Positions 9,142 to 54,878 of a stretch of DNA of 55,698 bases are shown piece after piece (the stretch's first letter is position 1; the number at the start of each line of letters is the position of its first letter). The notes beneath the pieces were generated by a model, which was given only the letters and a program-made list of their open reading frames with translations, searched no databases and had not been told where the DNA came from. Source of the DNA: Chloroflexaceae bacterium (lineage in GTDB: Bacteria; Chloroflexota; Chloroflexia; Chloroflexales; Chloroflexaceae); assembly GCA_028282325.1 (NCBI GenBank), contig JANQID010000028.1, positions 1 through 55,698 of the forward strand, given 5' to 3'. Made by a program: the position numbers and the translations under genes.

Positions 9142-9558
9142 CTACGGGCGGCGCGTCAGGATCACCACGGGAATGACGCGCGTTGCTTTGCGCTGATAGT
9201 CGGCAAAGCCGGTATACTGCGCCGCTACCTTTGCGTAAAGCTGCGTACGCTCCGGTTCCACAGCCACCGTGGCCCGCGCGGCAAAGTGCTCGGTCCCGAC
9301 TTCCACCTGAACCTCCGGGTTGGCGACAAGGTTGTGATACCAGGCAGGATGTGTCGGCGCTCCCGCTTTTGACGCGATGACGATGTACCGATCGCCATCG
9401 GCCATATACGCCAACGGGTTGACGCGCGGTAATCCACTTTTGGCGCCAGTCGTGTGCAGCAGAAGGAGGGTCATATTCGCAAACGGACCGCCGACCTTGC
9501 CATTGTTCGTCCGGAATTCCTCGATAATCGTTTTATTCCACTCGTTGACATCGCTCAT
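9142..9558 (-). CDS. Deazaflavin (F420)-dependent nitroreductase-family protein
   Basis: This 138-residue protein belongs to the Ddn/split-barrel family of F420H2-dependent reductases. It begins MSDVNEWNKTIIEEFRTNNG, then has VGGPFANMTLLLLHTTGAKS, RVNPLAYMADGDRYIVIASK and AGAPTHPAWYHNLVANPEVQ. The GAKSGLPRVNPL and PTHPAWYHNL motifs are the family signature for binding deazaflavin cofactor. Members reduce nitroaromatics, quinones or other small molecules. The ATG at 9558 fits the normal family start, while the frame extends ten codons further. It belongs with the F420 biosynthesis genes of this window functionally. It stands alone between a pseudogene and gltB. The substrate is unknown. Confidence 0.88.
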   Translation of the reverse strand: MSDVNEWNKTIIEEFRTNNGKVGGPFANMTLLLLHTTGAKSGLPRVNPLAYMADGDRYIVIASKAGAPTHPAWYHNLVANPEVQVEVGTEHFAARATVAVEPERTQLYAKVAAQYTGFADYQRKATRVIPVVILTRRP

Positions 9559-38437: not shown

Positions 38438-38444
38438 GCGGTGC

Positions 38445-38942: not shown

Positions 38943-40684
38943 GCCTCTACCTTGATTGACATCACCCGACAGATAGGGCAATCGTCGCTCGCAAAGTGAG
39001 TTTCTAGCTGTTCAAGCTTGTCCAGACTCAATTGATAGCGTGCGGACAGCTTAAAACCTTCTGCCGTAAATGCCGCGCTGTCACCCTTCCACGAACGAAT
39101 ACGATTTTCCTGAACTCGTGTTTGCATCGTATCGATGGCCAACCGTGATGCAAGTTGAGCCGTTTGTACAGCATCCAACGAGCCATAGGGTGTATACAGG
39201 TTATGACAGCCAGCGATGGAGCGTCGAAAAACCTGCCCAGGAGCAGCAAAAGATGCGCGATTATGCAAATGATCTTCTGCTTCTGATCGGGAATATAAAC
39301 ACTCAAAGCAGCCTGAAGATCCGTTCAAACCGGTCAAGACTGCATGGCCACCAATACCATAGGGTTCAACCCAGGCAAAGATGACAGGAGGTCCATTAAT
39401 AGTCTGCCGCACCTGCTCGTTCAAGTCTAGCTCGGATGTAGGATTACCCATTGCAGAGATGGTCAAGTCATACGTGTATAAATTTACCGTACGGGAACCG
39501 ACAAGTTGTTCTATTGTTCCGACGAAAGACTCGGCTTTCGAAAAAGGCAGTTGGGCGCGTAGTGCTCGTTTCAGGGCAACAGCCTTTTCAACTCCCCAAT
39601 AACTCCTACCCAAGACATGCCGATATGTGTTCTCTGATTCTAGCTTATCGGGGTCAACCAGGTGCAAATGATCGACACCTGCCCGCGATAGTTCAAATGC
39701 AATATGCCCACCTACTGCACCACAACCAATCAACAGCACACGTTTCTCGCCCAAATCTCGCTGTCCTCCACCCCGCTGCACGAGATACTGCCTGTCACGT
39801 CGGAATATAATGATTGGCGTGATCGCACTTGCCGTGCCGGCATCGGCAAGAGGGTGCCGCTCACCAAGTTCTTCGAAGCGAACACCGAAAAGGGCCGCGT
39901 CACCGGATGGGCGAGGCAGTCGCGCAATCAAAAACTGATGGGAATAGGAACGCTTGTCGAGAAGGTCTTCCAAAAGCCCACGGTGTTCTGCTGAGCAATG
40001 GCTTAACAGCCGCCGTATACCATCAGTGCCCCAAAACGATGGCTCCGATTGTGGCGGTAGTAGCAAGGTGCCTGGCGAAAGTGGAAGGTACAGTGCCGGG
40101 CAGGCAGTCCAGGGTCCTTGATCAGCGGGAGTGTTGGGGATATACGGAATCTGAGCAGCATGGTGAGCGATGCGGAGCCCAGGCTGGGCCTTGGCACTGG
40201 TGCCAACGAATACTTCAGTCACTTGGTCGAGAGCGAGGAGATCGAGATTTGCAAGAGCCAGAACAGGTCTATTCAGCCTGGCCCAATACACCTCGAACTC
40301 ATCCACGAAGTCGTGTCGGTTTTCACCACTGACACCTTCTAGCAGGGTTCGCTGTACGTGGCTGAAACACTCGCGCACAACATCAAGTGGTCGGCGTCGA
40401 TCGAAGATGATCCCCTCCGCTTCAAGGAAGCAGACGACGCCCTCTGAATCGATATGTGGGATGAGTCCAAGTGCATCCTTCGGGTGCAGGAAAAATTTGG
40501 GCAGGTGGTTGTTCCACATAGGATCAACGTTGACGGCTATCCCGACCGAATGCCCCGCAATGTCGACCCTTCCAGCAACCGCAAGTGCTCCGCTATTGAG
40601 CTTGATCTGGCGAGGTTGGCGTAATAATCCAGCCTGTTCGATATCCCAAAGGAGCTTGCTGCGCCAGATGTTGATGTCAGCCAT
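38939..40684 (-). CDS. cap2: CBASS Cap2: ubiquitin E1-E2-like conjugating enzyme
   Basis: Cap2 attaches the CD-NTase C-terminus to target proteins and primes cyclic-nucleotide production. This 581-residue protein has an E2-like N-terminal domain whose catalytic Cys probably lies in HIDSEGVVCFLEAEG (residue about 115). The E1/ThiF domain starts with KRVLLIGCGAVGGHIAFELS, followed by HLHLVDPDKLESENTYRHVL. Two CxxC pairs (CFEC and CPIC) should bind zinc. The likely E1 Cys is in SIAGCHNLYTPYGSLD. I chose ATG 40684; an upstream frame to 40834 overlaps the cdn gene. The cdn stop lies four bases before it. Confidence 0.92.
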   Translation of the reverse strand: MADINIWRSKLLWDIEQAGLLRQPRQIKLNSGALAVAGRVDIAGHSVGIAVNVDPMWNNHLPKFFLHPKDALGLIPHIDSEGVVCFLEAEGIIFDRRRPLDVVRECFSHVQRTLLEGVSGENRHDFVDEFEVYWARLNRPVLALANLDLLALDQVTEVFVGTSAKAQPGLRIAHHAAQIPYIPNTPADQGPWTACPALYLPLSPGTLLLPPQSEPSFWGTDGIRRLLSHCSAEHRGLLEDLLDKRSYSHQFLIARLPRPSGDAALFGVRFEELGERHPLADAGTASAITPIIIFRRDRQYLVQRGGGQRDLGEKRVLLIGCGAVGGHIAFELSRAGVDHLHLVDPDKLESENTYRHVLGRSYWGVEKAVALKRALRAQLPFSKAESFVGTIEQLVGSRTVNLYTYDLTISAMGNPTSELDLNEQVRQTINGPPVIFAWVEPYGIGGHAVLTGLNGSSGCFECLYSRSEAEDHLHNRASFAAPGQVFRRSIAGCHNLYTPYGSLDAVQTAQLASRLAIDTMQTRVQENRIRSWKGDSAAFTAEGFKLSARYQLSLDKLEQLETHFASDDCPICRVMSIKVEA

Positions 40685-40688
40685 AACT

Positions 40689-41747
40689 CTATGCACTGTT
40701 CCCCGAAGATGTGATTGCTGGCGGGTGAACTGACGCCGTTTCCTGCTTCTCAGGCACAGGGAAGTCCTTTCCGAACACCATCTGGAGCCGCTCGCAAGCT
40801 GCTCGTGTATCAGCCACCCCCTCAGCATACACAAGGGCGTCTTTCAGCACTGTCATCTTGTCCTTGAGTGTGCGCATCTGTCTTGCCGTCATTCGATCGA
40901 AGACGTCATTCCAGGGTTCGATAGGTAGCTTTACAATCAGCCGCTCGACATATGCCTTCTCGTCCTCGTCATAGACCAACTGGAAGCTGGCCAAGACAAC
41001 CTCAACGAGCTCACGCATCGCTCGCAAATCATTGTGCTTGTTGGCGAAGGCATCAGTATATCTTGGTTGGAAGTGATAGTAGGTGAGGAGTGTAAGACCG
41101 ATTCCATTAGGTGCTGAAGCGCCTCCGGCAGTGAAATTAACTACCTTCCACCGCTTCCAGTAGCGAATAACTCGGCGGAACTGCTTGCGATCCTCAGCGC
41201 CAGGGAACTTATCGAAAATTGTATCGCTCAGCTGTTGTGGATTGGAGACCTCCCAATAGCGATTCTCCGGCAATGAGTGCTGCTTGCCTTTAGCGTGATA
41301 GGATTTGCCGTCAGTATTCATGCTCGATTCTGAGTAGACCGCTACATCGACATGGTAGAGCGGTTCATCATTACAGCTGTAGAACACTGTAACGCAGGAG
41401 CGCCGTAGTTCGACTCGATTCGTATGTCCATCAAGTGCTTCGAAGACGCGCTCCTTAAGCTTAACAGGATCGGGCCATTCAGTAATACTCACAAGAAAGT
41501 AAAGACCCTGATCGATATCATAATCCCCATCCAATGGCTTTGTTCCCGTGTCCATCTCATAACTTCCCTGATCAAGGAAGTAATATTCAGGACATATCTC
41601 ATTATACTTCTTGAACACAACAGGCAGATTCGCCTTGAGCTTCCGACGGATGATATCACGCTTCTCCCGAAGGGTTGCGTTCTCTTCAAACCTGCCGAGA
41701 CGAATAGTGTCGTTGAATTGCTCGAACTGCATCTGCACATTCGCCAT
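40689..41747 (-). CDS. CBASS CD-NTase (cyclic oligonucleotide synthase)
   Basis: This 352-residue protein is a cGAS/DncV-like nucleotidyltransferase. The active site is visible as YFLDQGSYEMDTGTKPLDGD with YDIDQGLYFLV: the GS motif, then the D-x-D pair DYDID. The third catalytic Asp is in LYHVDVAVYSES. RQFRRVIRYWKRWKVVNFTA and GIGLTLLTYYHFQPRY are helical-core parts common to this superfamily. The C-terminus is a flexible tail ending SSGNSA. A terminal Ala or Gly is what Cap2 would join to targets. GGAGG precedes ATG 41747. The clade and exact product (a cyclic di- or trinucleotide) are not determined; clade G is possible because those partner with Cap5. Confidence 0.9.
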   Translation of the reverse strand: MANVQMQFEQFNDTIRLGRFEENATLREKRDIIRRKLKANLPVVFKKYNEICPEYYFLDQGSYEMDTGTKPLDGDYDIDQGLYFLVSITEWPDPVKLKERVFEALDGHTNRVELRRSCVTVFYSCNDEPLYHVDVAVYSESSMNTDGKSYHAKGKQHSLPENRYWEVSNPQQLSDTIFDKFPGAEDRKQFRRVIRYWKRWKVVNFTAGGASAPNGIGLTLLTYYHFQPRYTDAFANKHNDLRAMRELVEVVLASFQLVYDEDEKAYVERLIVKLPIEPWNDVFDRMTARQMRTLKDKMTVLKDALVYAEGVADTRAACERLQMVFGKDFPVPEKQETASVHPPAITSSGNSA

Positions 41748-41791
41748 GCTAAACCTCCAGCTAAAGGGTCTTCCCCTGAACCCTTTCCGAG

Positions 41792-41842
41792 CGAAATTTC
41801 GTCCCGAGCGAAATTGTAGCACAGCCAGCGTATTTTTGTCAA
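41792..41842 (-). promoter_or_regulatory. Sigma70 promoter of the CBASS operon
   Basis: The minus strand carries TTGACA (41837-41842), an 18-base spacer and TACAAT (41813-41818), a near-consensus promoter. The palindrome CGAAATTTCG (41792-41801) lies over the expected transcription start, and CGAGCGAAATT occurs twice, so a repressor site is plausible. Confidence 0.75.
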
Positions 41843-41862
41843 GGCGCAATTTCAGATCAATA

Positions 41863-41879
41863 TTTCGTCATTGACGAAA
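41863..41879. promoter_or_regulatory. Perfect operator-like dyad between CBASS and its XRE gene
   Basis: TTTCGTCA-T-TGACGAAA is a perfect inverted repeat with a one-base centre. It overlaps the -35 (TTGACG, 41871-41876) of a plus-strand promoter with TATAAGAT near 41892, serving the XRE gene. It also abuts the CBASS promoter. It is a natural binding site for the XRE regulator. Confidence 0.7.
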
Positions 41880-41966
41880 CCTCAAACCTCGTATAAGATG
41901 TTATCGTGCTTGCATTCCGACTCCACATATAAACAAACGTTCGATTATTGATATGGGCTAGGTGCA

Positions 41967-42365
41967 ATGATGCAACTTGGTGCACGCCTCCGACAGTTAC
42001 GTAAGCAACATCGGTTGACCTTGGTCGATCTGGGTGAACAGACGAAGCTTTCTGTCTCATTTCTTTCTGAAATTGAGCGCGAGCAGACAAACCCTTCCCT
42101 CGAAACGCTTGAGAAGATAGGGAAGTGTTATGATCTGACCGTTAATCAACTTTTGGAAGGTGTTGATCTTGGAGGAAGCGGATCAAACGTCATATACCCA
42201 CCAGGGCTTGCGGCTTTTCTTGATGAGGCTCGCAGCTCCCCCGACTTTGATGAAAGCGTTGTAGAGTTAATGCTAAAAGTTGAGCAACGCTCGATTCGTC
42301 GTGCTGAAACGGTAGAAGACTGGAAGAGGTTTTACTATTCTTTGAAGACAATTATTGGCGGATGA
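41967..42365 (+). CDS. XRE-family repressor, CapH-like
   Basis: This 132-residue protein has a clear helix-turn-helix in MMQLGARLRQLRKQHRLTLV and DLGEQTKLSVSFLSEIEREQ, then TNPSLETLEKIGKCYDLTVN. A C-terminal helical region (SPDFDESVVELMLKVEQRSI and EDWKRFYYSLKTIIGG) probably makes dimers. It is divergent from the CD-NTase gene, with operator-like repeats between. CapH is the published HTH repressor of some CBASS operons, and CapP is an ImmA/IrrE-type peptidase that cleaves CapH after DNA damage. Identity with CapH is inferred from position, size and the peptidase neighbour. Confidence 0.78.
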   Translation: MMQLGARLRQLRKQHRLTLVDLGEQTKLSVSFLSEIEREQTNPSLETLEKIGKCYDLTVNQLLEGVDLGGSGSNVIYPPGLAAFLDEARSSPDFDESVVELMLKVEQRSIRRAETVEDWKRFYYSLKTIIGG

Positions 42366-42369
42366 CCAT

Positions 42370-43260
42370 TCAATCGCTCAGGGCGTCAAATAGACCCATC
42401 TGCTGGCTGGAATGTATGAGCGGAGGAGACACATTGAAGACTGCAAATACCTTGCCTTTCAAAAAACATGCCTCGCAATCAACCTCCCATCGGGTTTGGC
42501 TTCGAAACGGGATCGTATCCCGTCCTTTGATGTGTTCTCTTTGATGATAGGCTATTGCGATTATGTGCTCTTTGGATATTCTTGTATGCCGAGCAATGGA
42601 GTATTTCGTTATACTCGGTGATTGTGCGGTATAGCATACATACAGACCAGGCGACCCCTGAGGATTTTCGAACAAAAGGTTAGAAGGTACTTGTGCCTCT
42701 TTCCTGCGTGATGGCAGACCATACTCACATACGACAATATGGCATTGATGTGTGGCACAGTGAGCCATTTGGATAGCGATAGCTATCTTTGAGGCGGGGT
42801 AAGTTTCCTCAAGCCGCTCAATATGCGCAATACTAAAGCCATGATTTGTCAAAAAATGATGCAAATCCTGCATTGGGATCATGAATTCTGCAGCGCCGAA
42901 GTTACAGTAGGTTTCCACGACTCTCTTCAATTCTTGATTGCCTTGTGCGTATTCGTGAAGGAATGAATAAAGTAGTGCATCTTCGCGGATTAGATGATGA
43001 GAGACCTCATGAAAGAATGTGAAGTTCAGTCGGTCGCTATCGCTCACGCGAGGATCAAGGACAATAAGACGTCTGTCAGGAATATACTGGCCCTCATCGA
43101 AGTCGAGTGCAACTTCACGAACTTCAAGGCCTAAATGTTTGGCAATAGGGTCATCAATTCCACTGTAGTGTGGGTGGTGATTCAGGTTTAACTCTCGTTT
43201 TACTTGGGTGATAAGATCTCGTAATCGCTTTCGTGCCTGGGCTTCTGTCTCAATGTTCAC
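42370..43260 (-). CDS. ImmA/IrrE-family metallopeptidase, CapP-like
   Basis: This 296-residue protein has the zinc motif HEVSHHL (HExxH) in FHEVSHHLIREDALLYSFLH, followed by a helix with the third ligand in YCNFGAAEFMIPMQDLHHFL (the Glu in AAEFM). The N-terminus carries LGLEVREVALDFDEGQYIPD and LIVLDPRVSDSDRLNFTFFH, standard for the family. The rest (residues 170-296) is a cysteine- and histidine-containing region that might sense a signal, as in IrrE or CapP. It starts with GTG at 43260 behind GGAGG. It ends 4 bases from the end of the XRE gene, on the opposite strand, which is an unusual layout for CapH-CapP. Confidence 0.85.
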   Translation of the reverse strand: MNIETEAQARKRLRDLITQVKRELNLNHHPHYSGIDDPIAKHLGLEVREVALDFDEGQYIPDRRLIVLDPRVSDSDRLNFTFFHEVSHHLIREDALLYSFLHEYAQGNQELKRVVETYCNFGAAEFMIPMQDLHHFLTNHGFSIAHIERLEETYPASKIAIAIQMAHCATHQCHIVVCEYGLPSRRKEAQVPSNLLFENPQGSPGLYVCYTAQSPSITKYSIARHTRISKEHIIAIAYHQREHIKGRDTIPFRSQTRWEVDCEACFLKGKVFAVFNVSPPLIHSSQQMGLFDALSD

Positions 43261-43423: not shown

Positions 43424-43735
43424 ATGAAGTCAGCTCGCCTCCAACTTAGCCCGGACTTTCCCGACTTGATCGCGCGGACCGGGCTCTCGCAGCGCGCCTT
43501 TGCGCGCCGCGCTGGAGTGAGCTTTTCGACGATTATGGGCCTGATGCATCCGGAGATCCATCCCGGCCGGCGCGGTGGGATGCAGCGCCGTACCGCCTGG
43601 CTGCTGTCCAACGCCTACGCGGAGTTGGTCGGAGTTGATGCCGATACTGCCTTCCGCACGCTGATTGTGGAGCGTGCTGGTGAGATCTCGGCAGGGCCAT
43701 ATATTGAGGGCCTTACCGAGCCAGGAAACCAATGA
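43424..43735 (+). CDS. HTH-domain protein, first gene of the helicase operon
   Basis: This 103-residue protein has one helix-turn-helix: SPDFPDLIARTGLSQRAFAR and RAGVSFSTIMGLMHPEIHPG. A basic stretch follows (GRRGGMQRRTAWLLSNAYAE), then a C-terminal part LVGVDADTAFRTLIVERAGE. XRE-like proteins of this form either regulate or are components of the systems they precede. Its stop codon overlaps the helicase start as ATGA (43732), so it is translationally coupled. I therefore infer a role in the module rather than an independent regulator. ImmA/IrrE is divergent from it, 163 bases away. Confidence 0.75.
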   Translation: MKSARLQLSPDFPDLIARTGLSQRAFARRAGVSFSTIMGLMHPEIHPGRRGGMQRRTAWLLSNAYAELVGVDADTAFRTLIVERAGEISAGPYIEGLTEPGNQ

Positions 43736-46596
43736 CTCTCACAGCTTATCACTCCAAGTACTACGCATATCATTTGACCAGGCGTCTGCCGGCGGGAAGC
43801 GATGAGCGATTGACTGGTGCAGTTGCTAGCGCTCAAGTCGATCTTAACCCGCATCAGGTCGATGCTGCACTATTCGCATTTAAGTCGCCGTTGTCCAAAG
43901 GTGCTTTGCTGGCTGACGAGGTGGGCCTTGGAAAGACTATCGAAGCTGGGCTTGTCCTGTCACAGAAAATTGCTGAGGGAAATCGCCACATTTTAGTTAT
44001 CACCCCCTCTAACCTGCGCAAACAGTGGTATCAGGAGTTGACCGAGAAGTTTTTTCTGCGCTGTCGGATTTTAGAGACAAAATCTTACAATGCTGCCGTC
44101 CAGCAAGGTAACGCCAATCCTTTCAAGGCTCGTGACATTATCATTTGCTCGTATGAGTTTGCACGAAGCAAATCAGAAGACATTCGCCAGATACCCTGGA
44201 ATATTGTTGTTATCGATGAAGCTCACCGCCTGCGCAATGTCTACAAACCCGGCAATGTCACTGCCAATACGTTGCGGCAGACGCTGGTTGGTAGGCATAA
44301 GCTTCTGCTGACCGCCACTCCGCTTCAGAACTCACTTCTGGAACTCTATGGCCTCGTTAGTTTTATTGACGAACATGCCTTTGGTGATCTCAAGAGTTTC
44401 CGCAACCAGTTTGTTAATCTGAACCAGGAGCAGGTCTTCCAGACCCTCAAGACGCGCTTGAAGCCGATCTGCCATCGCACCTTGCGTCGTCAGGTCACTG
44501 CACATGTGCCTTACACGCAGCGGCTGCCGATTGTTCAGGAATTTACGCCTGAAGAGAGCGAAGACCAACTCTACGAACTTGTCTCTGAGTATCTCAGGCG
44601 CCCAGACCTTCAGGCTCTTCCTGCCAGCCAGCGTTCGCTCATTACACTCGTCCTGCGTAAGCTGCTTGCCTCCTCGACATTTGCGATTGCCGGTGCCCTT
44701 ACCTCCATCTCAAACCGGCTCAAGGCTAAGCTCCAGCAACATAGCCCAGACGAGCCATTAGAGGAGGAACTCGATAGCGATTATGAGGCCCTCGACGAGA
44801 CCGCAGAAGAGTGGCCTGAGGACGATACACCGTCGCTGAGCAATGCTGATCGTCAAGCCATCGAGCGCGAGATAGCTGATCTTGATGTATTTGTCGGCCT
44901 TGCCACTGCAATTTACCAGAATGCAAAAGGTTCTGCGCTCCTTACCGCACTGAGTGAGGCGTTTACGAAAGCGCGTGAACTCGGTGCTGCTGAGAAGGCG
45001 ATTATTTTCACTGAGTCGCGACGAACCCAGGATTACTTGCTACGCCTCCTCGCCGATAGTCCCTACGCCGAAGGGATTGTGCTGTTCAACGGCTCCAACA
45101 GTGACGAGCGTTCACGCAAGATCTATACAGAGTGGTTTGAGCGTTACAAAGGTACTGATCGTGTTACCGGATCGCGTGCTGCTGATATGCGCTCTGCGCT
45201 TGTCGATTACTTTCGCGATCAAGGCCGGATTATGATCGCGACTGAGGCGGGGGCAGAAGGAATTAACCTGCAATTCTGCTCGCTCGTGGTCAATTACGAC
45301 CTGCCGTGGAACCCACAACGCATCGAGCAACGCATCGGTCGCTGCCATCGCTATGGCCAGAAGCACGATGTTGTTGTCGTCAACTTCATCAACCGCAAGA
45401 ATGCGGCTGATCGGCGGGTCTTTGAACTCCTTTCTGAGAAATTTAAACTTTTCGAGGGCGTGTTCGGCGCCAGCGACGAGGTACTTGGTGCAATTGGGTC
45501 GGGTGTTGACTTCGAGAAGCGGATTGCAGAGATTTATCAACGCTGTCGTCGACCAGAGGAAATACAGGAAGCGTTTGACCAGATTCAACGTGAATTGAGT
45601 GTTGAGATTAATGCATCGATGACCCGCACGCGGCAGCGGTTGCTTGAGAACTTTGACGATGAGGTGCGCGAAAAGCTCCGCATCCGGGGTGAAACCTCAA
45701 AAGAATTCCTCTCACGCTATGAGCGGTTGTTGCTTGACATCGCACGTTTTGAGTTACATGATCATGCTCGCTTCTTGGGTAACATGCGTTTCGAGTTGCA
45801 CGATCAACCCTTTCCAGAAGTAGCGGCTAAGATTCCTCTCGGTCAATATAAATTGCCACGGCACGAAGGTGAAGCCCACCTCTTTCGGCTCAACCATCCA
45901 TTAACTGAAGCGATTCTAGACCGGGCAAAAAGCCGAACCCTGCCGCCGGCAGCAATCGTCTTTTCATACGACCAATACCATGGGAAGATCACTCAGCTTG
46001 AACCGTTTATCGGTCAGTCGGGCTGGCTGACACTTTCACTGTTTAGCATTGAGTCGTCTGAGCAAGCCGAAGATCATCTTGTGGTGACCGCAGTCACTGA
46101 TGCTGGTACTGCGGTTGATGCGAAACTTGCCGAGCGCATATTTGACATTCCCGGCAACAGCACGTTTCTTGACCCCGACACAAACCCAGGTTCCCTTCAA
46201 GACGTACTCGCACACAGGCTTCAACAGCAGACAGGTATCATTCAGAGTGATATTTCCGAGCGTAATGCAAAGTTCTTCGAGGCCGAGACGATAAAACTGG
46301 ATGGCTGGGCCGATGATTTGAAGAGCGGTATTGAACGCGAGATTAAAGAACTCGATCGCCAGATCAAAGAGGCTCGGCGTGCCGCCTCAGCTGCCTTGAC
46401 CCTTGAAGAAAAACTCGCTGGTCAGAAACAAGTGAAAGCGCTCGAACTCCAGCGCAACCAGAAGCGCCGGTCACTCTTCGATGCACAGGACGAGATTGAT
46501 CAGCAGCTTGAGGCTTTGATTGCTGAGGCCGAGGCCAAGCTTAATCAGACAACGCACCTGGAAACACTTTTTACCACTCGGTGGGTACTACAATGA
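43732..46596 (+). CDS. SNF2/RapA-like DEAD-box helicase of a defence module
   Basis: This 954-residue superfamily 2 helicase carries motif I LLADEVGLGKTIEAGLVLSQ (residues about 59-78), Ia ILVITPSNLRKQWYQEL, II VVIDEAHRLRNV, III LLTATPLQNSLLELYGLVSF, V MIATEAGAEGINLQFCSLVV and VI QRIGRCHRYGQKHDVVVVNF. It is close in layout to RapA and to DrmD-like helicases. Acidic linkers lie around residue 340-375 (DEPLEEELDSDYEALDETAE). The C-terminus (860-945) is a strong coiled coil (EIKELDRQIKEARRAASAAL). It probably translocates on double-stranded DNA. It overlaps the gene before and the short ORF behind by ATGA. Confidence 0.93.
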   Translation: MTLTAYHSKYYAYHLTRRLPAGSDERLTGAVASAQVDLNPHQVDAALFAFKSPLSKGALLADEVGLGKTIEAGLVLSQKIAEGNRHILVITPSNLRKQWYQELTEKFFLRCRILETKSYNAAVQQGNANPFKARDIIICSYEFARSKSEDIRQIPWNIVVIDEAHRLRNVYKPGNVTANTLRQTLVGRHKLLLTATPLQNSLLELYGLVSFIDEHAFGDLKSFRNQFVNLNQEQVFQTLKTRLKPICHRTLRRQVTAHVPYTQRLPIVQEFTPEESEDQLYELVSEYLRRPDLQALPASQRSLITLVLRKLLASSTFAIAGALTSISNRLKAKLQQHSPDEPLEEELDSDYEALDETAEEWPEDDTPSLSNADRQAIEREIADLDVFVGLATAIYQNAKGSALLTALSEAFTKARELGAAEKAIIFTESRRTQDYLLRLLADSPYAEGIVLFNGSNSDERSRKIYTEWFERYKGTDRVTGSRAADMRSALVDYFRDQGRIMIATEAGAEGINLQFCSLVVNYDLPWNPQRIEQRIGRCHRYGQKHDVVVVNFINRKNAADRRVFELLSEKFKLFEGVFGASDEVLGAIGSGVDFEKRIAEIYQRCRRPEEIQEAFDQIQRELSVEINASMTRTRQRLLENFDDEVREKLRIRGETSKEFLSRYERLLLDIARFELHDHARFLGNMRFELHDQPFPEVAAKIPLGQYKLPRHEGEAHLFRLNHPLTEAILDRAKSRTLPPAAIVFSYDQYHGKITQLEPFIGQSGWLTLSLFSIESSEQAEDHLVVTAVTDAGTAVDAKLAERIFDIPGNSTFLDPDTNPGSLQDVLAHRLQQQTGIIQSDISERNAKFFEAETIKLDGWADDLKSGIEREIKELDRQIKEARRAASAALTLEEKLAGQKQVKALELQRNQKRRSLFDAQDEIDQQLEALIAEAEAKLNQTTHLETLFTTRWVLQ

Positions 46597-46703
46597 TTAT
46601 GGAAGATCCATATTTAGCTCTACCGGCGATTGTAAACTCTTACGTGATGCGCTTCTCGCCAATCTTGCCGCCTCTTAACCCTAAGGACCTTGATTATGAA
46701 TGA
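46593..46703 (+). CDS. 36-codon ORF bridging helicase and next gene
   Basis: ATG at 46593 overlaps the helicase stop as ATGA, and the frame runs 36 codons (MIMEDPYLALPAIVNSYVMR, then FSPILPPLNPKDLDYE) to TGA at 46701-46703. That stop in turn overlaps the start of the next gene (46696) by 8 bases. The composition is non-random: a hydrophobic centre between acidic ends. A purely accidental ORF would be unlikely to begin and end exactly at both junctions. It could be a real small component or a coupling peptide that lets ribosomes carry on. I cannot name a family. It should be conserved in related loci if real. Confidence 0.5.
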   Translation: MIMEDPYLALPAIVNSYVMRFSPILPPLNPKDLDYE

Positions 46704-46890
46704 GTCAACTAATTCGGAGTCCCCCGCGCAGATCCTTGCTCGCCAGATCGTCGAGCGATTGGTTGAGGAGCGCCTGATTAGTGCCAAGACGGCGGGGAAG
46801 CTACAACAACAACTGGCTGCCGGGAAACTCCGTCCTGAGGATTGGCGCCTGCCAATCGAACTCGGCCCTGAGCAGGAGGCTCAATCATGA
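46696..46890 (+). CDS. Small protein (64 aa) of the helicase-ATPase module
   Basis: This 64-residue protein starts MNESTNSESPAQILARQIVE and continues RLVEERLISAKTAGKLQQQL AAGKLRPEDWRLPIEL. The middle is one long amphipathic helix pair, and the protein is charged. It overlaps the ATPase gene by ATGA (46887) and is coupled to the small ORF upstream. By position it could be a middle or accessory component that links helicase and ATPase, as small proteins do in other SMC-based defence systems. No known domain is recognised. I prefer ATG 46696 to the TTG at 46690, with AAGGA ten bases upstream. Confidence 0.7.
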   Translation: MNESTNSESPAQILARQIVERLVEERLISAKTAGKLQQQLAAGKLRPEDWRLPIELGPEQEAQS

Positions 46891-49196
46891 TCAGCACCTC
46901 TTTGACGAAGTTGACAATCTCGCATCTGCGCGGAGCAGTCGGCTCATTTGAGCTGTCTTTCGAGAAGGGGAAGAAGCTCACAATTATTTATGGCGAAAAT
47001 GGCACCGGGAAATCGACGATCTGCGATGCACTGGAGTTTCTGGGTAAGGGCAAGATCGGCTCACTCGATAATCGCGGTCTGGGTAGTAAGACCACCCGTT
47101 ACTGGAGTAGTGTTAATAAGGAACCTTCCGATATCTCGGTTGTTCTCGACGCCGCCGGCGTTGAGTGTCGCGCCGTTATGGACAAGAACAATGTGATCGC
47201 CGATCCGCCCGACGCACGCCCGCGGGTTGAAGTATTGCGCCGCAGCCAGATTCTGGCCCTCCTGGAAGCAGCTCCTGCAGACCGTTACGCTGCGATCAGC
47301 CGCTTTATCGATGTCTCACCTATCGAAACCGCCGAGAATGCGCTGCGCGCCCTGATCAAGGATCTGAACGTCGTCAGCAATGACGCTGCAACACGCATTT
47401 CGGAGAACCTTGAGACGATCGATCAGTTCTGGCAGACCGCCGGTTCTCCGGGCGCACATGCGCTCGGATGGGCAGAAACGGAGACCCAGCGCAATAGTAG
47501 TGCGAATGACCCTGAGCTTGATGCGCTCCGTACACTTCAGACTGCTTACGGACAGTTAACCAGTTATCCAGCTCGGATCGCGAAGGCCGAGGATGCTGTG
47601 CTCCTGGCTGAGGAAGCAGCGGCTGCCGCAGAGCAGCAGGTTCAATCGAGCATGAGCACTGCCGCAACCGATGCCGCCGAGCTTGTTGCGCTCCTTCAGG
47701 CCGCCCGTTCGTATCTAGGCGTCCATCAAAACCCCGAAGTATGTCCGGTGTGCGAGCGGCCCGAAGGTTCGCAAGACCTCGATGAGCGATTGAACCAGCG
47801 GCTCCAGGCCTTTGCGATGGTTCAGCAGGCTCAAAGCGTTCAGTCCGGCGCCGCAGACCGGTTGCAACGCGCGATCCAGCAACGCGACATCATTCTCGAA
47901 CAACTGGCGCAAGATGTGGCAAATTTTGGACAAGCCTGTACCCAGTTCGCCTGGTCGCCCGATATTGCGCTGCCCGATACGCAGCCTCCGGCCTCCGCAA
48001 CCGATCTGGCAGTATGGCTCGCCGCAACGGAAGCGCTACCGGATCGCTGGAATGCGGCAGAGAGCACGCGTCAGGATCACCGGCAGTTCCTGACGACGTT
48101 GAAGAGCGCCCTGAATACCTACAACGAAAATCTGCAAAGCCAGGCAGAACTGAATACGCTGCTCCCAAATTTGCAACGTGCCCTGGAGATCGTTGAGGAA
48201 GAGCGCAAGGCATTTATCGATGCTATCCTCAGCCAGATTGCCGATGAGGTAGGGCGACTCTATGAGGCTGTCCATCCCGGCGAGGGGCTGAATAAGATCC
48301 GGCTTGAACTCGATGCGGCCAAGCGGGCCTCGCTGGATATCGCCACCAGTTTTGCCGGGCAGAGCGGGCCGCCGCAGGCCTACTTCAGCCAGTCCCATCT
48401 CGACACCCTGGGTCTCTGCGTGTTCCTTGCTCTTGCGAATCTGGATACCCCCGCCAATACCATCCTCGTGCTTGATGATGTGCTGGCCAGCGTCGATGAG
48501 CCGCACGTTGATCGATTGATCAGTATGTTGTACGATGAGTCGCTGAAGTTCCGGCACTGCATTATTACGACCCATTATGGCCCGTGGCGCCATAAGCTGC
48601 GCTGGGGTTGGCTGAAGAATAACCAGTGCCAGTTCGTCGAGCTTTCGCGCTGGTCGACAACCTCAGGTATCTCGGTCATCCGGAGTGTGCCTGAGGTGGA
48701 GCGCCTGCAGGCGCTGCTCGCCGACCCGGCGCCTGATCTGCAGGCGATCTCGTCGAAGGCCGGCGTGATTCTGGAGGCCGCGTTGGATTTCTTGACTCAG
48801 CTGTATGAGTGTTCGGTGCCGCGCAAGCCAGAGCCACGCTATACGCTCGGCGAGCTGCTTCCATCTGTGAAGAGTAAGCTGCGCAAGAACCTGCGCGTCG
48901 AAGTGCAGGAGATCGGCACAGACAAACTACCCGTCTATAAAGTTGTGTATTTAGAGCCGGTATTGAACGAACTCGAACGGATCATGCAGACGCGCAATGT
49001 GATGGGTGCGCACTTCAATGCGATCTCCTTCGATCTGCATGATGCCGACGCACTCCTGTTTGGCCAGAAGGTGCTGGAATTGATCGAGGCGCTCGTCGAT
49101 CCCGTCGCCGGCTGGCCGCGCAATGGAAAATCCGGTTCCTACTGGGCCAATGCCAGCGAGACTCGTCGCCTGCATCCGCTGAAGCAACCTGCGTGA
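46887..49196 (+). CDS. SMC/Rad50-like ATPase with C-terminal HEPN-like motif
   Basis: This 769-residue AAA/ABC-class ATPase has Walker A IIYGENGTGKSTICDALEFL (residues 34-53). Coiled-coil arms run from about 180 to 440 with a CPVCERPEG zinc-hook at about 284. Walker B and D-loop lie in NTILVLDDVLASVDEPHVDR (about 520-540), after a signature-like FAGQSG-QAYFSQSHLDTLGL. The last 180 residues form a separate helical domain (LEAALDFLTQLYECSVPRKP and LERIMQTRNVMGAHFNAISF). RNVMGAH (R703-x5-H709) fits the HEPN ribonuclease motif (R-x4-6-H). ATPase-hook-HEPN is the general build of RloC and PrrC anticodon nucleases, to which this seems analogous. It starts by ATGA overlap with the gene before. Confidence 0.85.
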   Translation: MISTSLTKLTISHLRGAVGSFELSFEKGKKLTIIYGENGTGKSTICDALEFLGKGKIGSLDNRGLGSKTTRYWSSVNKEPSDISVVLDAAGVECRAVMDKNNVIADPPDARPRVEVLRRSQILALLEAAPADRYAAISRFIDVSPIETAENALRALIKDLNVVSNDAATRISENLETIDQFWQTAGSPGAHALGWAETETQRNSSANDPELDALRTLQTAYGQLTSYPARIAKAEDAVLLAEEAAAAAEQQVQSSMSTAATDAAELVALLQAARSYLGVHQNPEVCPVCERPEGSQDLDERLNQRLQAFAMVQQAQSVQSGAADRLQRAIQQRDIILEQLAQDVANFGQACTQFAWSPDIALPDTQPPASATDLAVWLAATEALPDRWNAAESTRQDHRQFLTTLKSALNTYNENLQSQAELNTLLPNLQRALEIVEEERKAFIDAILSQIADEVGRLYEAVHPGEGLNKIRLELDAAKRASLDIATSFAGQSGPPQAYFSQSHLDTLGLCVFLALANLDTPANTILVLDDVLASVDEPHVDRLISMLYDESLKFRHCIITTHYGPWRHKLRWGWLKNNQCQFVELSRWSTTSGISVIRSVPEVERLQALLADPAPDLQAISSKAGVILEAALDFLTQLYECSVPRKPEPRYTLGELLPSVKSKLRKNLRVEVQEIGTDKLPVYKVVYLEPVLNELERIMQTRNVMGAHFNAISFDLHDADALLFGQKVLELIEALVDPVAGWPRNGKSGSYWANASETRRLHPLKQPA

Positions 49197-49277: not shown

Positions 49278-49324
49278 GGTGTTTGTCAGTTTTTTCGGCG
49301 GAGCCGAAAAAACTGACAAACACC
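49278..49324. terminator. Long perfect hairpin, likely bidirectional terminator
   Basis: Two perfectly complementary 22-base arms (49278-49299 and 49303-49324) are joined by a 3-base loop, with TTTTTT and AAAAAA inside. The flanks (AAAGGGA/TCCCCTTT) extend the pairing with few mismatches. A stem this long and clean is unusual and could terminate transcripts or act as an RNA processing or replication-related structure. Confidence 0.65.
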
Positions 49325-49379: not shown

Positions 49380-49670
49380 ATGAATGCATCCCGGGCGCTA
49401 GAGATATTGGCACAGGTCAAGCCTATTCTGGTCGAACGCTACGGAGTCACGCGACTGGCTCTCTTTGGCTCAACTGTACGCGATGCAGCGCGCCCTGCAA
49501 GCGATATTGATATTCTGGTGGGCTTCGATGGCCCCGCCACCTCGGCGCGCTACTTTGGGGTGCAGTTCTACCTGGAAGATCGGTTCGGCTGCCCAATCGA
49601 TCTGGTGACTGAGAAAGCGTTACGGGCCGAGCTGCGCCCAACGATCGAGAAGGAAGCCATGTATGTCTGA
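49380..49670 (+). CDS. mntA: MNT nucleotidyltransferase (MntA-like antitoxin)
   Basis: This 96-residue minimal nucleotidyltransferase starts MNASRALEILAQVKPILVER. It has the GSxxR motif in RLALFGSTVRDAARPASDID and then DIDILVGFDG (D-x-D). FYLEDRFGCPIDLVTEKALR brings the third acid. MntA proteins neutralise the HEPN toxin HepT by adding AMP units to it. Catalytic residues are intact. It overlaps the HEPN gene by 8 bases, with the antitoxin gene first. It lies 183 bases behind the ATPase gene, separated by two hairpins, so it begins a new operon. Confidence 0.9.
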   Translation: MNASRALEILAQVKPILVERYGVTRLALFGSTVRDAARPASDIDILVGFDGPATSARYFGVQFYLEDRFGCPIDLVTEKALRAELRPTIEKEAMYV

Positions 49671-50016
49671 CTCTGCGCAGCGCCCCTGGGGCTTTTACCT
49701 CGACGATATGATCGGCTTTGCCGAAAAAGCGCTGGCATATACCGCCAATCTCGACCAGGCTGGTTTTGTTGCCAGTGCGTTGCACTACGACGCAACCCTG
49801 CGCAACCTGGAGCTGATCGGTGAGGCCGCAACCCGTATCCCCACGGCAGTGCGTGATGCGAACCCGCAGATCCCGTGGCGGCTGGTGATCGCCACGCGTA
49901 ACCGCCTCATCCACGGCTATCTCGGCATCGACAACGACACGCTCTGGAGCATCATCCAGGATGATCTGCCTGCGTTGCTGCCTCAGCTCCGTGCGTTGAA
50001 AGACACTTTAGTATGA
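49663..50016 (+). CDS. hepT: HEPN ribonuclease toxin (HepT/DUF86-like)
   Basis: This 117-residue HEPN protein carries the DUF86 layout: DDMIGFAEKALAYTANLDQA, DATLRNLELIGEAATRIPTA and VIATRNRLIHGYLGIDNDTL. RNRLIHGY is the catalytic R-x4-H motif with the following Y that MntA modifies. It should cleave RNA when free and be AMPylated by the MNT partner. Its last codons overlap the start of the methyltransferase gene as ATGA (50013), so toxin, antitoxin and mod were translated as a unit. No inactivating change is seen. Confidence 0.9.
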   Translation: MSDSAQRPWGFYLDDMIGFAEKALAYTANLDQAGFVASALHYDATLRNLELIGEAATRIPTAVRDANPQIPWRLVIATRNRLIHGYLGIDNDTLWSIIQDDLPALLPQLRALKDTLV

Positions 50017-51726
50017 CTACGAAGCAGAAACTCGAACTCACCTGGATCGGCAAAGACCAACGCCCCCGCCTTGAGCCCCGCATCCTGCTCCCCGACCAGA
50101 CGCTGAGTTACCACGCCGCCCAGCGTGTCGGCGCTGACGATATCTTCGACAATATGCTCATCCAGGGCGATAACCTGCTGGCCCTCAAGGCGCTGGAGGC
50201 CGAGTTCACCGGCAAGGTAAAGTGTGTTTTCATCGACCCGCCCTATAACACCGGCAGCGCTTTCACCCACTACGACGACGGCGTCGCTCTGGCTCTCCTT
50301 GATGCGTGACCGGCTGGAGCTCATCTGGAAGCTCCTCTCAAACGATGGCTCGCTCTGGATCACAATTGACGATAACGAGGCCCATTATTTGAAGGTTATG
50401 GCAGATGAAATATTTGGACGCAGTAACTTCATTGCGACCTGCGTTTGGGAGAAGGATAAAGGTGGTCGTGGTGATGCAGATATATCTTTGTCCCATGACA
50501 ATATACTTGTCTATGCACGCAATCGCGATACCTGGTCAAATACGAGAAATCTAATGCCTCGCTCAGAAACCCAGCTTGGACGATTTAAGAACCCGGATAA
50601 CGATCCTCGCGGTCCTTGGCGTCAAGGAGATGATGGAACTGCGAAGAGCGGCACAGAAAAGCAAAGATTTCCTGTTCAACTACCTTCCGGTAGAATTGTC
50701 ACTCCACCTCCTGGAAGGTATTGGGCTTTTTCGCCACAAACACTGGAAAAGTCCCGTGAAGAAGGAAGGGCGTATTTTGGGGCTGATGGTGATCGCTTGC
50801 CAATCATCAAGCGCTACTTGAGTGAAGTACGAGAAGGTGTTGCTCCTCGTACTTGGTGGTCAGCAGACGAGGTTGGTACAAATCAACAGGCCAAGCGTGA
50901 CCATTTGAATAAGCTTCTACTTGATATCGAACCGTTTGCTACACCTAAACCTGAAGGTCTCATTCATAGAATTTTGTACATCGCTACTAACCCCGGCGAT
51001 CTCGTCCTAGATTCCTTTGCCGGTAGCGGTACCACCGGCGCAGTCGCGCACAAGATGGGCCGACGCTGGATTATGGTCGAACTGGGCGATCACGCGGTAA
51101 CACATATCGTGCCGCGGCTGCGCAAGGTGATCGACGGCGAAGATCCCGGTGGGGTGACGAAGGCGACCGATTGGCAGGGTGGTGGCGGCTTCCGCTTCTA
51201 TTGGTTGGCGCCCTCGCTGTTGGAGAAGGATCGCTGGGGGCGCTGGGTGATCAACAAAGAGTACAACGGGGCCATGCTGGCTGAGGCGCTCTGTAAGCTG
51301 GAGGGCTTCACTTATGCGCCAAGCGACACCTTCTACTGGCAGCACGGCCACTCTACCGAGCGCGACTTCATCTACGTCACCACCGCAAGCCTGAGCCACG
51401 TGCAGCTTCAGCAGCTCTCCGACGAGGTTGGGCCAGAGCAGACGCTGCTGGTGCTCTGCGCGGCCTTCCGCAGCGACGGCGAGTTTCCCAATCTCACCGT
51501 CAAGCGCATCCCGCTGCACGTGCTCAACCGCTGCGAGTGGGGCAAAGACGACCACTCGCTACGGGTGGAGAGCCTGCCAAAGGCGCCAGGGAAGCCGGTG
51601 CAAATGGGGCTGTTCGGAGGAGACTCACGCGAAGACGCGAAGGCGCGAAGGCCTAGAAGGGACGATGTCGCACGCGAAGGCCTGGAAGGGACGATGTCGC
51701 ACGCGAAGACGCGAAGGCGTGAATAG
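50013..51726 (+). pseudogene. Type III restriction system methyltransferase (mod), frameshifted
   Basis: The first frame (50013-50309) gives FDNMLIQGDNLLALKALEAE and FIDPPYNTGSAFTHYDDGV, the catalytic DPPYNTG of a beta-class DNA adenine methyltransferase, and then ends. The other frame takes over at SLWLSLMRDRLELIWKLLSN and runs through WITIDDNEAHYLKVMADEIF and the SAM motif DSFAGSGTTGAVAHKMGRRW. Family members have about three more residues (typically EHS) between the two halves. An 8-base deletion near 50286 explains both that gap and the frame change. The middle (target recognition part, about 50430-50990) is AT-richer. The end runs into tandem repeats. As it stands no full Mod is made. 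Confidence 0.85.
51626..51719. repeat. Tandem repeat at the mod 3' end / left flank of GxxExxY
   Basis: Units with ACGCGAAGRCGCGAAG and GAAGGGACGATGTCGCACGC occur two to three times. The right flank (52125-52150) carries CTTCGCGCCTTCGCGT, the inverse of part of the left. Similar CGCGAAG-type blocks flank GxxExxY genes in other genomes as I recall. They run into the last codons of mod. Confidence 0.75.
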
Positions 51727-51729: not shown

Positions 51730-52188
51730 ATGACCATGCCACAAATGGACATTGAAGCGCTTGCACGAGTGGTTGTCGATTGTGGGTTCAAGGTCCATAC
51801 TGGGCTCGGGCCAGGATTGCTCGAATCGGTGTATGAAGTTGTGCTGGCACATACCATCGAGCAGCGCGGACTGCATGTGCAGCGACAGTGTCCGGTGCCC
51901 ATCGAGTTTGAGGGCATAACCTTCGCGGAAGGGTTTCGCGCCGATTTGCTGATTGAAGGCCGCCTGCTGGTTGAGCTGAAATCCGTCGAACAGCTCGCGC
52001 CGGTTCACAGCAAACAGGTGCTCACCTACCTGCGCCTGCTGTGTCTCCCGCTTGGGTTGTTGATCAACTTCGGCGCCCCGACCTTTAAAGCCGGCATCAA
52101 ACGCATTGTCAACAGCCACACCGACTTCGCGGCTTCGCGCCTTCGCGTGCATCAAGCCGCCTCTCACCATGCCGAGGACAAGGAATGA
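51730..52188 (+). CDS. GxxExxY-family protein
   Basis: This 152-residue protein is a complete GxxExxY-family member. GPGLLESVYEVVLAHTIEQR holds the family motif (G-LL-E-SV-Y). It continues GLHVQRQCPVPIEFEGITFA and GFRADLLIEGRLLVELKSVE, which resembles a PD-(D/E)XK-like core (D..E-K), and LLCLPLGLLINFGAPTFKAG. The biochemical role is unknown. The last 20 residues (SRLRVHQAASHHAEDKE) are the translated repeat, not family sequence. Its stop overlaps the res start as ATGA. It is flanked by inverted copies of a repeat and lies between mod and res, where no such gene is expected, which suggests insertion as a unit. Confidence 0.88.
   Translation: MTMPQMDIEALARVVVDCGFKVHTGLGPGLLESVYEVVLAHTIEQRGLHVQRQCPVPIEFEGITFAEGFRADLLIEGRLLVELKSVEQLAPVHSKQVLTYLRLLCLPLGLLINFGAPTFKAGIKRIVNSHTDFAASRLRVHQAASHHAEDKE
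52125..52150. repeat. Right-flank repeat of the GxxExxY unit
   Basis: CTTCGCGGCTTCGCGCC TTCGCGT (52125-52148) inverts ACGCGAAGGCGCGAAG of the left flank. It lies inside the GxxExxY coding frame. Confidence 0.75.
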
Positions 52189-54878
52189 ACCGTCATGTCA
52201 ACACCATCGCCGGCCGCCTGAGCCTCCGCCCTCCGCAGCGCCGATCGCTGGAGATTCTTGATCGGATCACCGAGCTTGTGCCGCTGAAGGAACGTGGTGA
52301 GCCGGGTCAGATTCTTGAGGTGCTGCGCAGCGAGTTTTCTTCCCTGAGCGACTTCGAGCGCGAATTCCCCTCAATCTGCTTTGCCCTCGCCACCGGCGTC
52401 GGCAAAACGCGGCTGATGGGCGCGTTCATCAGCTACCTACACCTGGCCCACGGCATCGACAACTTCTTTGTGCTGGCGCCCAACCTGACGATCTATAACA
52501 AACTGATCGCCGACTTTACACCAAACACACCGAAATATGTTTTCAAAGGCATCGCGGAGTTCGCCGTTCAGGCGCCGGAAATCATCACCGGCGATAACTA
52601 TGAGTCGCGAGCGCGTACACTTTTCGACGAATTGGTGCGCTGCAAGATCAACATCTTCAATATCTCGAAGATCAACAGCGAGGTGCGCGGGGGTAAGTCG
52701 CCACGGATCAAGCGCCTCTCCGAGTATATCGGCGACAGCTACTTCAACTACCTTGCCGAACTGCCGGACCTCGTGTTGCTGATGGATGAGTCCCACCGCT
52801 ACCGGGCCAGCGCCGGGATTCGCGCGATCAACGAACTCAAGCCGATCCTGGGGCTGGAGCTAACAGCGACACCCTATGTAGAGACCAGTCGCGGGGCGCT
52901 GCCCTTCAAAAACGTGATCTATGATTACCCGCTCAGCAAGGCGATGGCCGATGGCTTCGTGAAAGAGCCTGCCGTCGTCACCCGCAAAGATTTCAACCCG
53001 GCGGGAATGTCGCCCGAGGAGATCGAGCGGCTGAAGCTCGAGGACGGCATCCGCCTCCACGAGAGCGTGAAGGTTGAGCTGGAAACCTACGCCCGCGAAA
53101 CCGGCAACCCGATTGTGAAGCCGTTCCTCCTGGTGATCGCTCGCGACACCAGCCATGCCGGCCAGCTGCTCGCCCAGATCCAATCGGACAGCTTTTTTGA
53201 TGGGCGATACAAAAACAAGGCGATCCAGGTCGACTCCAGCAGGAGCGGCGCAGAGGAAGAGGAGATGATCGCCCGGTTGCTCAAAGTCGAGCAGACCGAA
53301 GAGCCTACCGAGATCGTGATCCACGTCAACATGCTCAAAGAGGGCTGGGACGTGACAAATCTCTATACAATCGTCCCACTCCGGGCCGCAAACGCACGCA
53401 TCTTGATCGAGCAGTCGATCGGTCGTGGCCTGCGACTGCCGTATGGTAAACGGACGGGAGTGAGTGCGGTTGATCGGCTCAACATCGTCGCCCATGATCG
53501 CTTTCAGGAGATCATCGACGAGGCGAACCGGCCTGACTCAGCGATCCGTGTGGCTTCGGTGGTGCTGGACAACGCTCAGCTCAGCCAGCGCACAAACACG
53601 GTTGTCTCACAGCCAAACGTCGCAGCTCGGCTCGGCTTGCAGCCGGCTCAGGTCACCGGGACTACCCGTGTCGCACCTCAAGCCGAGCAGCCAGCCTTTG
53701 CGAAGCCCGAGGAACAACACATCGCGCAGATTGCTTACCAGGTCATTCGTAATCTGGAGAACCAGCCGCAGAAATTGCCGACCATCGAGCATCTGCGGCG
53801 TCCGGAGACGCAGGCGGAAATTGTCCGGAAAGTGGAAGAGCAAACCAGGCCGGCACAGCTGGCTCTTGATGGCCTCGACGTCCAACCTGACGTTGCAGCG
53901 ATTGTCGCCCAGACAGTGGAACTTGTCACCCAGCAGACGATCGGTATCCCGCGGATCCTGGTTGTGCCGACCGGTGAGGTGCGCTCGGGTTTTCGCCCAT
54001 TCACCCTCGACCTCACGACGTTGAACTACCCATCACCCTCCGACGAACTATGGGCCCAGCATCTGCGCACGGGGCAGCGCGACATCATTGCGATGAGCGC
54101 GGGCAGCGCCGAAGAGTCGCGGTTGGAAGATTACGTCGTGAGCGGGTTGATCGACTTCGACGATATCTCGTACGACGATCACGCCGAGTTACTGTACGAG
54201 CTTGCAGAGCAGACCGTCAATCACTTTCGCACGTATCTTTCTGAAGACGATGTCCGTAGAGTGCTGCGCTTGTACCAGCGGGAGATTGCGCGCTTCATCC
54301 ACACGCAGATGCAGGCCCACTCCTGGGAAGAGGCGACCGGCTACGAAGCAATTGTCAGCAAAAGCTTTACCGAACTCAAACCCAGCGCCTACACTCAGGC
54401 GATCAACGAACAGCCAATGAGCTACACCGTATCGCCGCAGGATAAGAGCAACATGGGACGCTACCTCTTCGGTGGATTCACGCGCTGCCTCTACCCCATG
54501 CAGAAGTTTGAATCCGACCCTGAACGGCGCCTCGCCGTTATTCTGGACCGAGACGCGCTCAAGTGGTTTCGACCTGCGCGTGGGCAGTTTCACATCTTCT
54601 ACAAAGACGGCGCCGATCAGCACGAGTATCAGCCGGACTTCGTCGCCGAGGCGGAAGATGCAATCTATATGCTGGAGTCGAAGGCGAGCAACAAGTTGGA
54701 CGACCCCGTTGTCCTGGCCAAGCGCGATGCGGCGCTGGAATGGTGCGCCCACACAACCGAGTTTGCCGCCGAGAACGGCGGGAAGCCATGGCGCTACGTG
54801 CTAATTCCGCACGATGTCATTGCCGACAACATGACCCTGGCCGGCCTTGTTCAGTTCTATGGCGTGAAGCAAAAGTAA
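52185..54878 (+). CDS. Type III restriction enzyme Res subunit (helicase-nuclease)
   Basis: This 897-residue protein has a superfamily 2 helicase: Walker A in ICFALATGVGKTRLMGAFIS (residues about 65-84), motif II VLLMDESHRYRASAGIRAIN, motif III LGLELTATPYVETSRGALPF, and motifs V/VI in VIHVNMLKEGWDVTNLYTIV and ARILIEQSIGRGLRLPYGKR. The C-terminal PD-(D/E)XK nuclease reads EYQPDFVAEAEDAIYMLESK. Res cleaves DNA only with Mod, after translocation or sliding between head-to-head sites. All motifs are intact, although the mod gene is frameshifted. It begins by ATGA overlap with the GxxExxY gene, with GAGGACAAGGA as ribosome-binding site. Confidence 0.93.
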   Translation: MNRHVNTIAGRLSLRPPQRRSLEILDRITELVPLKERGEPGQILEVLRSEFSSLSDFEREFPSICFALATGVGKTRLMGAFISYLHLAHGIDNFFVLAPNLTIYNKLIADFTPNTPKYVFKGIAEFAVQAPEIITGDNYESRARTLFDELVRCKINIFNISKINSEVRGGKSPRIKRLSEYIGDSYFNYLAELPDLVLLMDESHRYRASAGIRAINELKPILGLELTATPYVETSRGALPFKNVIYDYPLSKAMADGFVKEPAVVTRKDFNPAGMSPEEIERLKLEDGIRLHESVKVELETYARETGNPIVKPFLLVIARDTSHAGQLLAQIQSDSFFDGRYKNKAIQVDSSRSGAEEEEMIARLLKVEQTEEPTEIVIHVNMLKEGWDVTNLYTIVPLRAANARILIEQSIGRGLRLPYGKRTGVSAVDRLNIVAHDRFQEIIDEANRPDSAIRVASVVLDNAQLSQRTNTVVSQPNVAARLGLQPAQVTGTTRVAPQAEQPAFAKPEEQHIAQIAYQVIRNLENQPQKLPTIEHLRRPETQAEIVRKVEEQTRPAQLALDGLDVQPDVAAIVAQTVELVTQQTIGIPRILVVPTGEVRSGFRPFTLDLTTLNYPSPSDELWAQHLRTGQRDIIAMSAGSAEESRLEDYVVSGLIDFDDISYDDHAELLYELAEQTVNHFRTYLSEDDVRRVLRLYQREIARFIHTQMQAHSWEEATGYEAIVSKSFTELKPSAYTQAINEQPMSYTVSPQDKSNMGRYLFGGFTRCLYPMQKFESDPERRLAVILDRDALKWFRPARGQFHIFYKDGADQHEYQPDFVAEAEDAIYMLESKASNKLDDPVVLAKRDAALEWCAHTTEFAAENGGKPWRYVLIPHDVIADNMTLAGLVQFYGVKQK

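Follow-up and report, generated by a model that had tools for sequence, protein, structure and literature searches.

Gene content and order of the operon

The window, by which we mean the whole 55,698-nt stretch of Chloroflexaceae DNA that was analysed, carries a run of forward-strand genes that begins with a small HTH gene (43424..43735; 103 aa, Xre-like, probably a regulator). Its product gave weak HTH_31 and HTH_3 matches that fell below the cut-off, and it is not conserved, as elsewhere the position is occupied by other small DNA-binding ORFs or by none. The genes that follow encode a SNF2/RapA-type translocase of 954 aa (43732..46596), a 36-aa ORF (46593..46703), a 64-aa small protein whose gene overlaps the start of the next one (46696..46890), and a 769-aa SMC/Rad50-like ABC ATPase with a zinc hook and a C-terminal HEPN-like domain (46887..49196). 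A previous, sequence-only reading had described these five ORFs as linked by small overlaps, and their coordinates bear this out, with adjacent frames sharing 4 to 8 bases. The five genes are real and were for the most part read correctly, but the end of the unit had been placed wrongly at 49196; it runs to 54878.

Between the ATPase gene and the MNT gene downstream lies a perfect 22-nt inverted repeat with a 3-nt loop (49278..49324, forward strand), which occurs as a single copy genome-wide and is a probable transcription terminator. An MNT nucleotidyltransferase (49380-49670, forward strand; PF01909) and a HepT HEPN protein (49663-50016, forward strand; PF01934) form accessory toxin-antitoxin cargo, and a pair 68% and 72% identical to them occupies the same place in locus L023. 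The remaining genes, also on the forward strand, specify Mod, a type III-like DNA methyltransferase (50013..51726; PDLC03636, PF01555), an accessory GxxExxY-type PDDEXK_3 protein (51730..52188; PF13366, 1.4e-37) and Res, a type III restriction helicase-nuclease of 897 aa (52185..54878; PF04851) that matches PDLC03648 with 713 bits and contains a PD-x-ESK motif near its C-terminus. The window's Mod is frameshifted, being split near 50290 into ORFs 50013-50309 and 50224-51726 with codons of intact relatives missing; profile PDLC03636 scored 525 bits on the second fragment and 700 bits on the intact Mod of L003. The L023 Mod is also frameshifted, at another position. The frameshifts in these two SMC-bearing loci represent assembly errors, decay or phase variation, and the window's copy of the operon may be inactive unless its break is an assembly error.

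Full-length homologues of the ATPase, with 43-55% identity, were found in five other genomes (L001-L005), and these share with the window the order SNF2, small protein, SMC-like ATPase, accessories, Mod and Res. The SNF2 proteins of these five loci are 65-70% identical to that of the window (split over two frames in L004), and Mod and Res are intact in the same operon of each. The gene set therefore does recur in other genomes, with the 64-aa protein, ATPase and SNF2 found together in L001-L004 and L023, and with SNF2, the ATPase and a weaker small protein at the same position in L005. The proposal that these genes form a defence-type module is supported. They lie in a SNF2-containing type III-like R-M operon and are the front half of this larger, probably anti-phage operon that combines SNF2 with a type III-like R-M pair.

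A CBASS operon adjoins, mainly on the reverse strand (window 37286-43260). It encodes a SAVED-HNH-type effector (37286-38437), a JAB protein (38445-38981), an E1-E2 protein (38939-40834) and a cyclase (40689-41849), and it also contains an HTH gene (41967-42365) and a CapP-like peptidase gene (42370-43260), of which the former may be the CapH partner of the latter.

Two small proteins had been proposed to lie between SNF2 and the ATPase, and one of them stands: the 64-aa protein is a conserved partner of the ATPase. The idea of a second conserved small protein was rejected for the 36-aa ORF, as no relatives carry a counterpart, and this ORF is probably not a conserved gene. The 64-aa protein shows 54% identity in L001, where a 58-aa homologue begins right after the SNF2 stop, and about 30% in L002-L004; in all members of the close ATPase family a small ORF (~60 aa) lies directly 5' of the ATPase gene and overlaps it. 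On Bacteroidota plasmids (L008-L010), distant stand-alone ATPases also have a similar small ORF in front of them, and haloarchaeal ATPases are preceded by short ORFs without clear similarity. Since small ORFs also precede these stand-alone and haloarchaeal ATPases, the small gene and the SMC gene together look like a mobile two-gene unit. A haloarchaeal BREX-5 locus (L011, 13814-16478) has a small ORF and a distant ATPase relative (23% identity) between PglX and PglZ.

The SMC-like ATPase and its C-terminal domain

The motifs that had been picked out in the ATPase were all confirmed. These are a Walker A motif (GENGTGKST, residues 36-44, 46992..47018), which is kept in A1; a zinc hook (CPVC, residues 286-289, 47742..47753), with CPxC present in 7/7 close relatives; a Walker B motif (LVLDD, residues 527-531, extending as LVLDDV to residue 532, 48465..48482), in which the DD is invariant and which is followed by the D-loop SVDEPH; and R703-x5-H709 (all on the forward strand). 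In Pfam the protein matched generic SMC/AAA models only, and in PADLOC its best named SMC match was the LmuB profile PDLC03859 (83 bits, E 6.9e-24). A model of the whole ATPase (pLDDT 70.7, pTM 0.50) comprises an ABC head (roughly residues 1-130 plus 500-590), a pair of long coiled-coil arms that join at CPVC 286-289 and, starting near residue 600, a C-terminal domain, and its structural matches were SMC and Rad50 heads with Z of 17-19.6.

All relatives of the ATPase with more than 40% identity were found inside SNF2-Mod-Res loci at the same position. In a sample of 398 genomes from the phylum of L003, the close family was present in three, with SNF2 adjoining each time, and the same sample held two remote relatives (24%) with no SNF2, Mod or Res nearby. 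The stand-alone and haloarchaeal relatives, at 23-32% identity, were kept separate from the close family. A scan of IMG/VR found no ATPase relatives in viral contigs.

The C-terminal domain, about residues 598-740 (48678..49106, forward strand), contains a probable RNase motif, R703-N-V-M-G-A-H709 (48993..49013, forward strand), of which the R, N, G, A and H are invariant; R-N-x-x-G-A-H is found in 11/11 ATPase homologues, down to about 28% identity, and fits the HEPN R-x4-6-H motif. When modelled alone with AF2 the domain gave a pLDDT of 77.9 and a pTM of 0.79, and upon structural re-alignment its 17 best matches were mostly HepT, MNT-HEPN, Csm6, HI0074 and ST0689, with Z of 5.1-7.8 and none at 8 or above. 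Foldseek with the domain model gave no significant match, HEPN included, and Pfam and PDB sequence profiles likewise gave nothing significant for the domain, with no HEPN family profile matching. The earlier assignment of this domain to HEPN is supported by the R-x5-H motif together with a predicted fold that mostly matches HEPN structures, and we regard the domain as likely to be HEPN. Judged by its motif, it probably cuts RNA.

A SNF2-Mod-Res core with interchangeable cargo

The translocase had been described as a helicase with SF2 motifs, and DEVGLGKT, DEAH, TAT, TEAGAEG and QRIGRCHR are all present. It matched Pfam SNF2-rel_dom (3.9e-39), and its best named model was that of the DISARM protein DrmD_b (NF038318), with 703.5 bits against a cut-off of 950; NF038317 gave 262 bits against a cut-off of 610.

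We surveyed 41 SNF2 loci with tblastn, requiring Mod and Res to lie in the same orientation as SNF2 and no more than about 7 kb downstream of it. Both were found downstream of SNF2 in every locus with enough flanking sequence (34/34). Six of the other seven (L023, L024, L026, L034, L042 and L048) end at contig ends, with Mod still visible in three, and the seventh, L021, has Mod with an annotated DEAD/DEAH helicase next to it, just past the stretch first fetched. Among the 41 loci examined, none of those with enough sequence had SNF2 without the Mod/Res pair. Relatives of SNF2 and Res were found in 51 and 27 plasmid records, respectively, largely the same records, and the SNF2-Mod-Res core is present on conjugative plasmids of enterobacteria. 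A SNF2 relative also occurs in 19 of the 398 sampled genomes of L003's phylum and in 8 of 400 sampled from the window's phylum, the window's own genome included.

As judged from these neighbourhoods, SNF2 is part of an R-M core. This runs counter to the idea that the partner of the ATPase is a RapA/DrmD-like translocase on its own, with no restriction enzyme; because a type III-like Mod/Res follows SNF2 in every testable relative, the ATPase instead sits inside an R-M operon, as do PrrC and some RloC. In a SNF2 tree the window's protein clusters with proteobacterial sequences and away from the members of its own phylum (L041-L047), a placement that suggests horizontal transfer.

Across genomes, the space between SNF2 and Mod is, by its gene content, a slot with interchangeable cargo. 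The small protein and SMC-HEPN ATPase occupy it in the window, L001-L005, L023 and L024. AIPR is found there in L015, L022, L031, L032 and L033, and lies 3' of the ATPase in L003 and L004. L025 carries a full-length Dsr2 (a SIR2-type anti-phage protein, 478 bits) at 5687-9259, L017 an AAA ATPase with DUF4276, and L014 an Abi-family gene, and inspection by eye added DUF262-like genes (L043-L045), OLD-like ATPases (L041, L042) and AlbA-like genes (L036, L037). There is no large gene in the slot of L016, L018, L020, L027-L030, L035, L038-L040, L046 or L047. RhuM-like genes occur 5' of AIPR in L033 and between Mod and Res in L001, L038, L043, L044 and L047. The partners in the slot include known or likely abortive effectors, for example full-length Dsr2 and AIPR.

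When 12 cargo classes were placed on the SNF2 tree (40 rows), at least 18 changes were needed. The SMC loci make up one well-supported group of eight with L022, which has AIPR there instead; this tree shows the SMC cargo as a single lineage in which AIPR has replaced it once. The view of the five genes as a separate new system has to be given up, as SNF2 is part of the R-M core and the small protein and ATPase are one of several exchangeable cargoes. A second cargo site is suggested by L039, L027 and L020, where different large CPxC ATPases (764-838 aa) are encoded immediately 3' of Res or next to it; their layout is alike, but we rejected them as members of the family, as the similarity is confined to the ATPase motifs.

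Proposed function and comparison with known systems

Gene order, conservation, cargo exchange, motifs and predicted folds lead us to propose a two-tier defence operon, to which we give about an even chance, with R-M acting first and the SMC-HEPN ATPase with its small protein second; its defence activity, RNase activity, trigger and silencing contact are what we infer. The first line would consist of the SNF2 translocase and the type III-like Mod/Res, such that self DNA is methylated and unmodified DNA is cut. The second would be the small protein and the SMC-HEPN ATPase, carried as cargo in the SNF2-Mod slot. The ATPase would dimerize via its heads and zinc hook and be kept silent by the R-M/SNF2 complex, by the small partner, or by both, until a phage inhibitor blocked the R-M enzyme or DNA ends or damaged DNA engaged the Rad50-like head. 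The HEPN domain (R703/H709) would then be released to cut cellular RNA, perhaps tRNA, and translation and phage growth would stop. By analogy, the SMC-HEPN ATPase probably works like PrrC/RloC, serving as an RNase that is coupled to an R-M enzyme and backs it up. Relatives of the pair of small protein and ATPase are also found away from R-M loci, so control may not require R-M.

We suggest more tentatively that SNF2-Mod-Res could be a distinct restriction class whose SNF2 motor is an obligatory subunit that doubles as the switch for any effector in the slot, be it SMC-HEPN, Dsr2, AIPR, DUF262 or OLD-like ATPases; if so, unrelated second-line effectors plug into one common SNF2-based trigger. 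The core is fairly common and is found on enterobacterial conjugative plasmids, so whether a single R-M core governs exchangeable abortive effectors can be asked in laboratory E. coli. Our results also suggest that a single operon may come out of annotation tools in pieces, as "type III R-M", "DrmD" and orphan genes.

The ATPase might instead be an autonomous Lamassu-like sensor that alone detects DNA ends or structures in replicating phages or plasmids and fires its HEPN domain, with the R-M operon only a ride. The LmuB profile as its best named SMC match, and the distant small-ATPase pairs found alone on Bacteroidota plasmids and in the haloarchaeal BREX-5 locus, are in keeping with this, yet the confinement of all close relatives to one position within SNF2-Mod-Res suggests coupling, and we regard an autonomous sensor as rather unlikely. 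An addiction-type toxin-antitoxin pair, in which the small protein is the antitoxin of an SMC-HEPN toxin and the two together mainly stabilise the R-M operon or its plasmid, with phage defence secondary, seems improbable. Although the small gene comes first and overlaps its partner, as in many toxin-antitoxin pairs, and although an MNT/HepT pair adjoins and the Deinococcus locus holds a VapC-type toxin gene in this same stretch, an ABC ATPase of 769 aa that bears a zinc hook would be an unusual toxin, and the long-arm ATPases of defence systems to which it is related serve as DNA sensors (PMC10586767).

Even less probable is a non-catalytic accessory that tethers or loops DNA for the SNF2/Res motors, with the C-terminal domain as a binding module. 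The ATPase does adjoin SNF2, and SMC-like clamps handle DNA; however, most SNF2-Mod-Res loci are without the ATPase, and so the core does not need it, and all 11 homologues retain both R and H of the catalytic-type motif.

The two-tier reading invites comparison with RloC and PrrC, and the likeness to them that had been noted is supported by the Rad50-like head, zinc hook, C-terminal HEPN-like domain and R-M setting. RloC and the window ATPase have in common a Rad50-like ABC head, coiled coils with a CxxC zinc hook and a C-terminal nuclease domain of HEPN class, predicted in the case of the window ATPase, and they are of comparable size (658-897 aa and 769 aa). Pfam AAA_13, which we take to be the model associated with PrrC/RloC, reached only 23.9 bits on the window ATPase (cut-off 36), over residues 26-57 (the P-loop) only. 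PrrC, and RloC in a minority of cases, are encoded within R-M loci of type I or III (PMC2610378, 2008 for RloC), and the RloC nuclease triad is R-x3-E-x36-52-H (PMC2610378). This triad is absent from the C-terminal part of all 11 homologues, which have R-x5-H in its place, and unlike RloC the window ATPase has a dedicated small partner and a fixed place between SNF2 and Mod. With the triad absent and the AAA_13 match below cut-off, we rejected membership in RloC.

The earlier statement that DISARM, Lamassu and BREX do not fit holds, each failing on a defining feature. As in Lamassu, the ATPase is SMC/Rad50-like, of similar size, with a CPxC hook and an LmuB profile match. Lamassu needs a separate LmuA, however, and the LmuB Walker B is described as an E-to-Q form (PMC10586767), whereas the window ATPase has a HEPN-like domain fused to it and LDD as its Walker B, and none of the genes annotated in the operon is of the LmuA type. 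The resemblance to DISARM lies in a DrmD relative adjoining a DNA methyltransferase, with a Res subunit present instead of DISARM genes; the DrmD match is below the family cut-off, DrmA, DrmB and DrmC are absent among the operon's genes, and MZB (DrmB-type) matches lie on other contigs only. PglX/BrxX and PglZ are absent among the annotated genes of the operon, excluding BREX, and the ARMADA/YprA system has a different gene set.

Mod and Res are strong matches to type III profiles, but unlike in type III R-M a SNF2 translocase is always 5' of Mod in the surveyed loci, the two being separated by the cargo slot. The HEPN RNase that forms a second line within an R-M operon is a theme of Anantharaman et al. 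2013 (PMC3710099), and the parts of that paper available to us name RloC-like ABC-HEPN, RhuM and DOC as neighbours in such operons and contain neither SNF2-Mod-Res with an SMC-HEPN and small-protein pair nor cargo exchange at a fixed slot. We found no description of SNF2-Mod-Res with a cargo slot, or of the ATPase-HEPN family with its small partner, in the open-access literature searched, and one may exist elsewhere. Both the core with its slot and the ATPase-HEPN family with its partner look new, and if the proposal is true, the PrrC/RloC idea would come to cover a new type of enzyme as well as a new family of ATPase-HEPN proteins.
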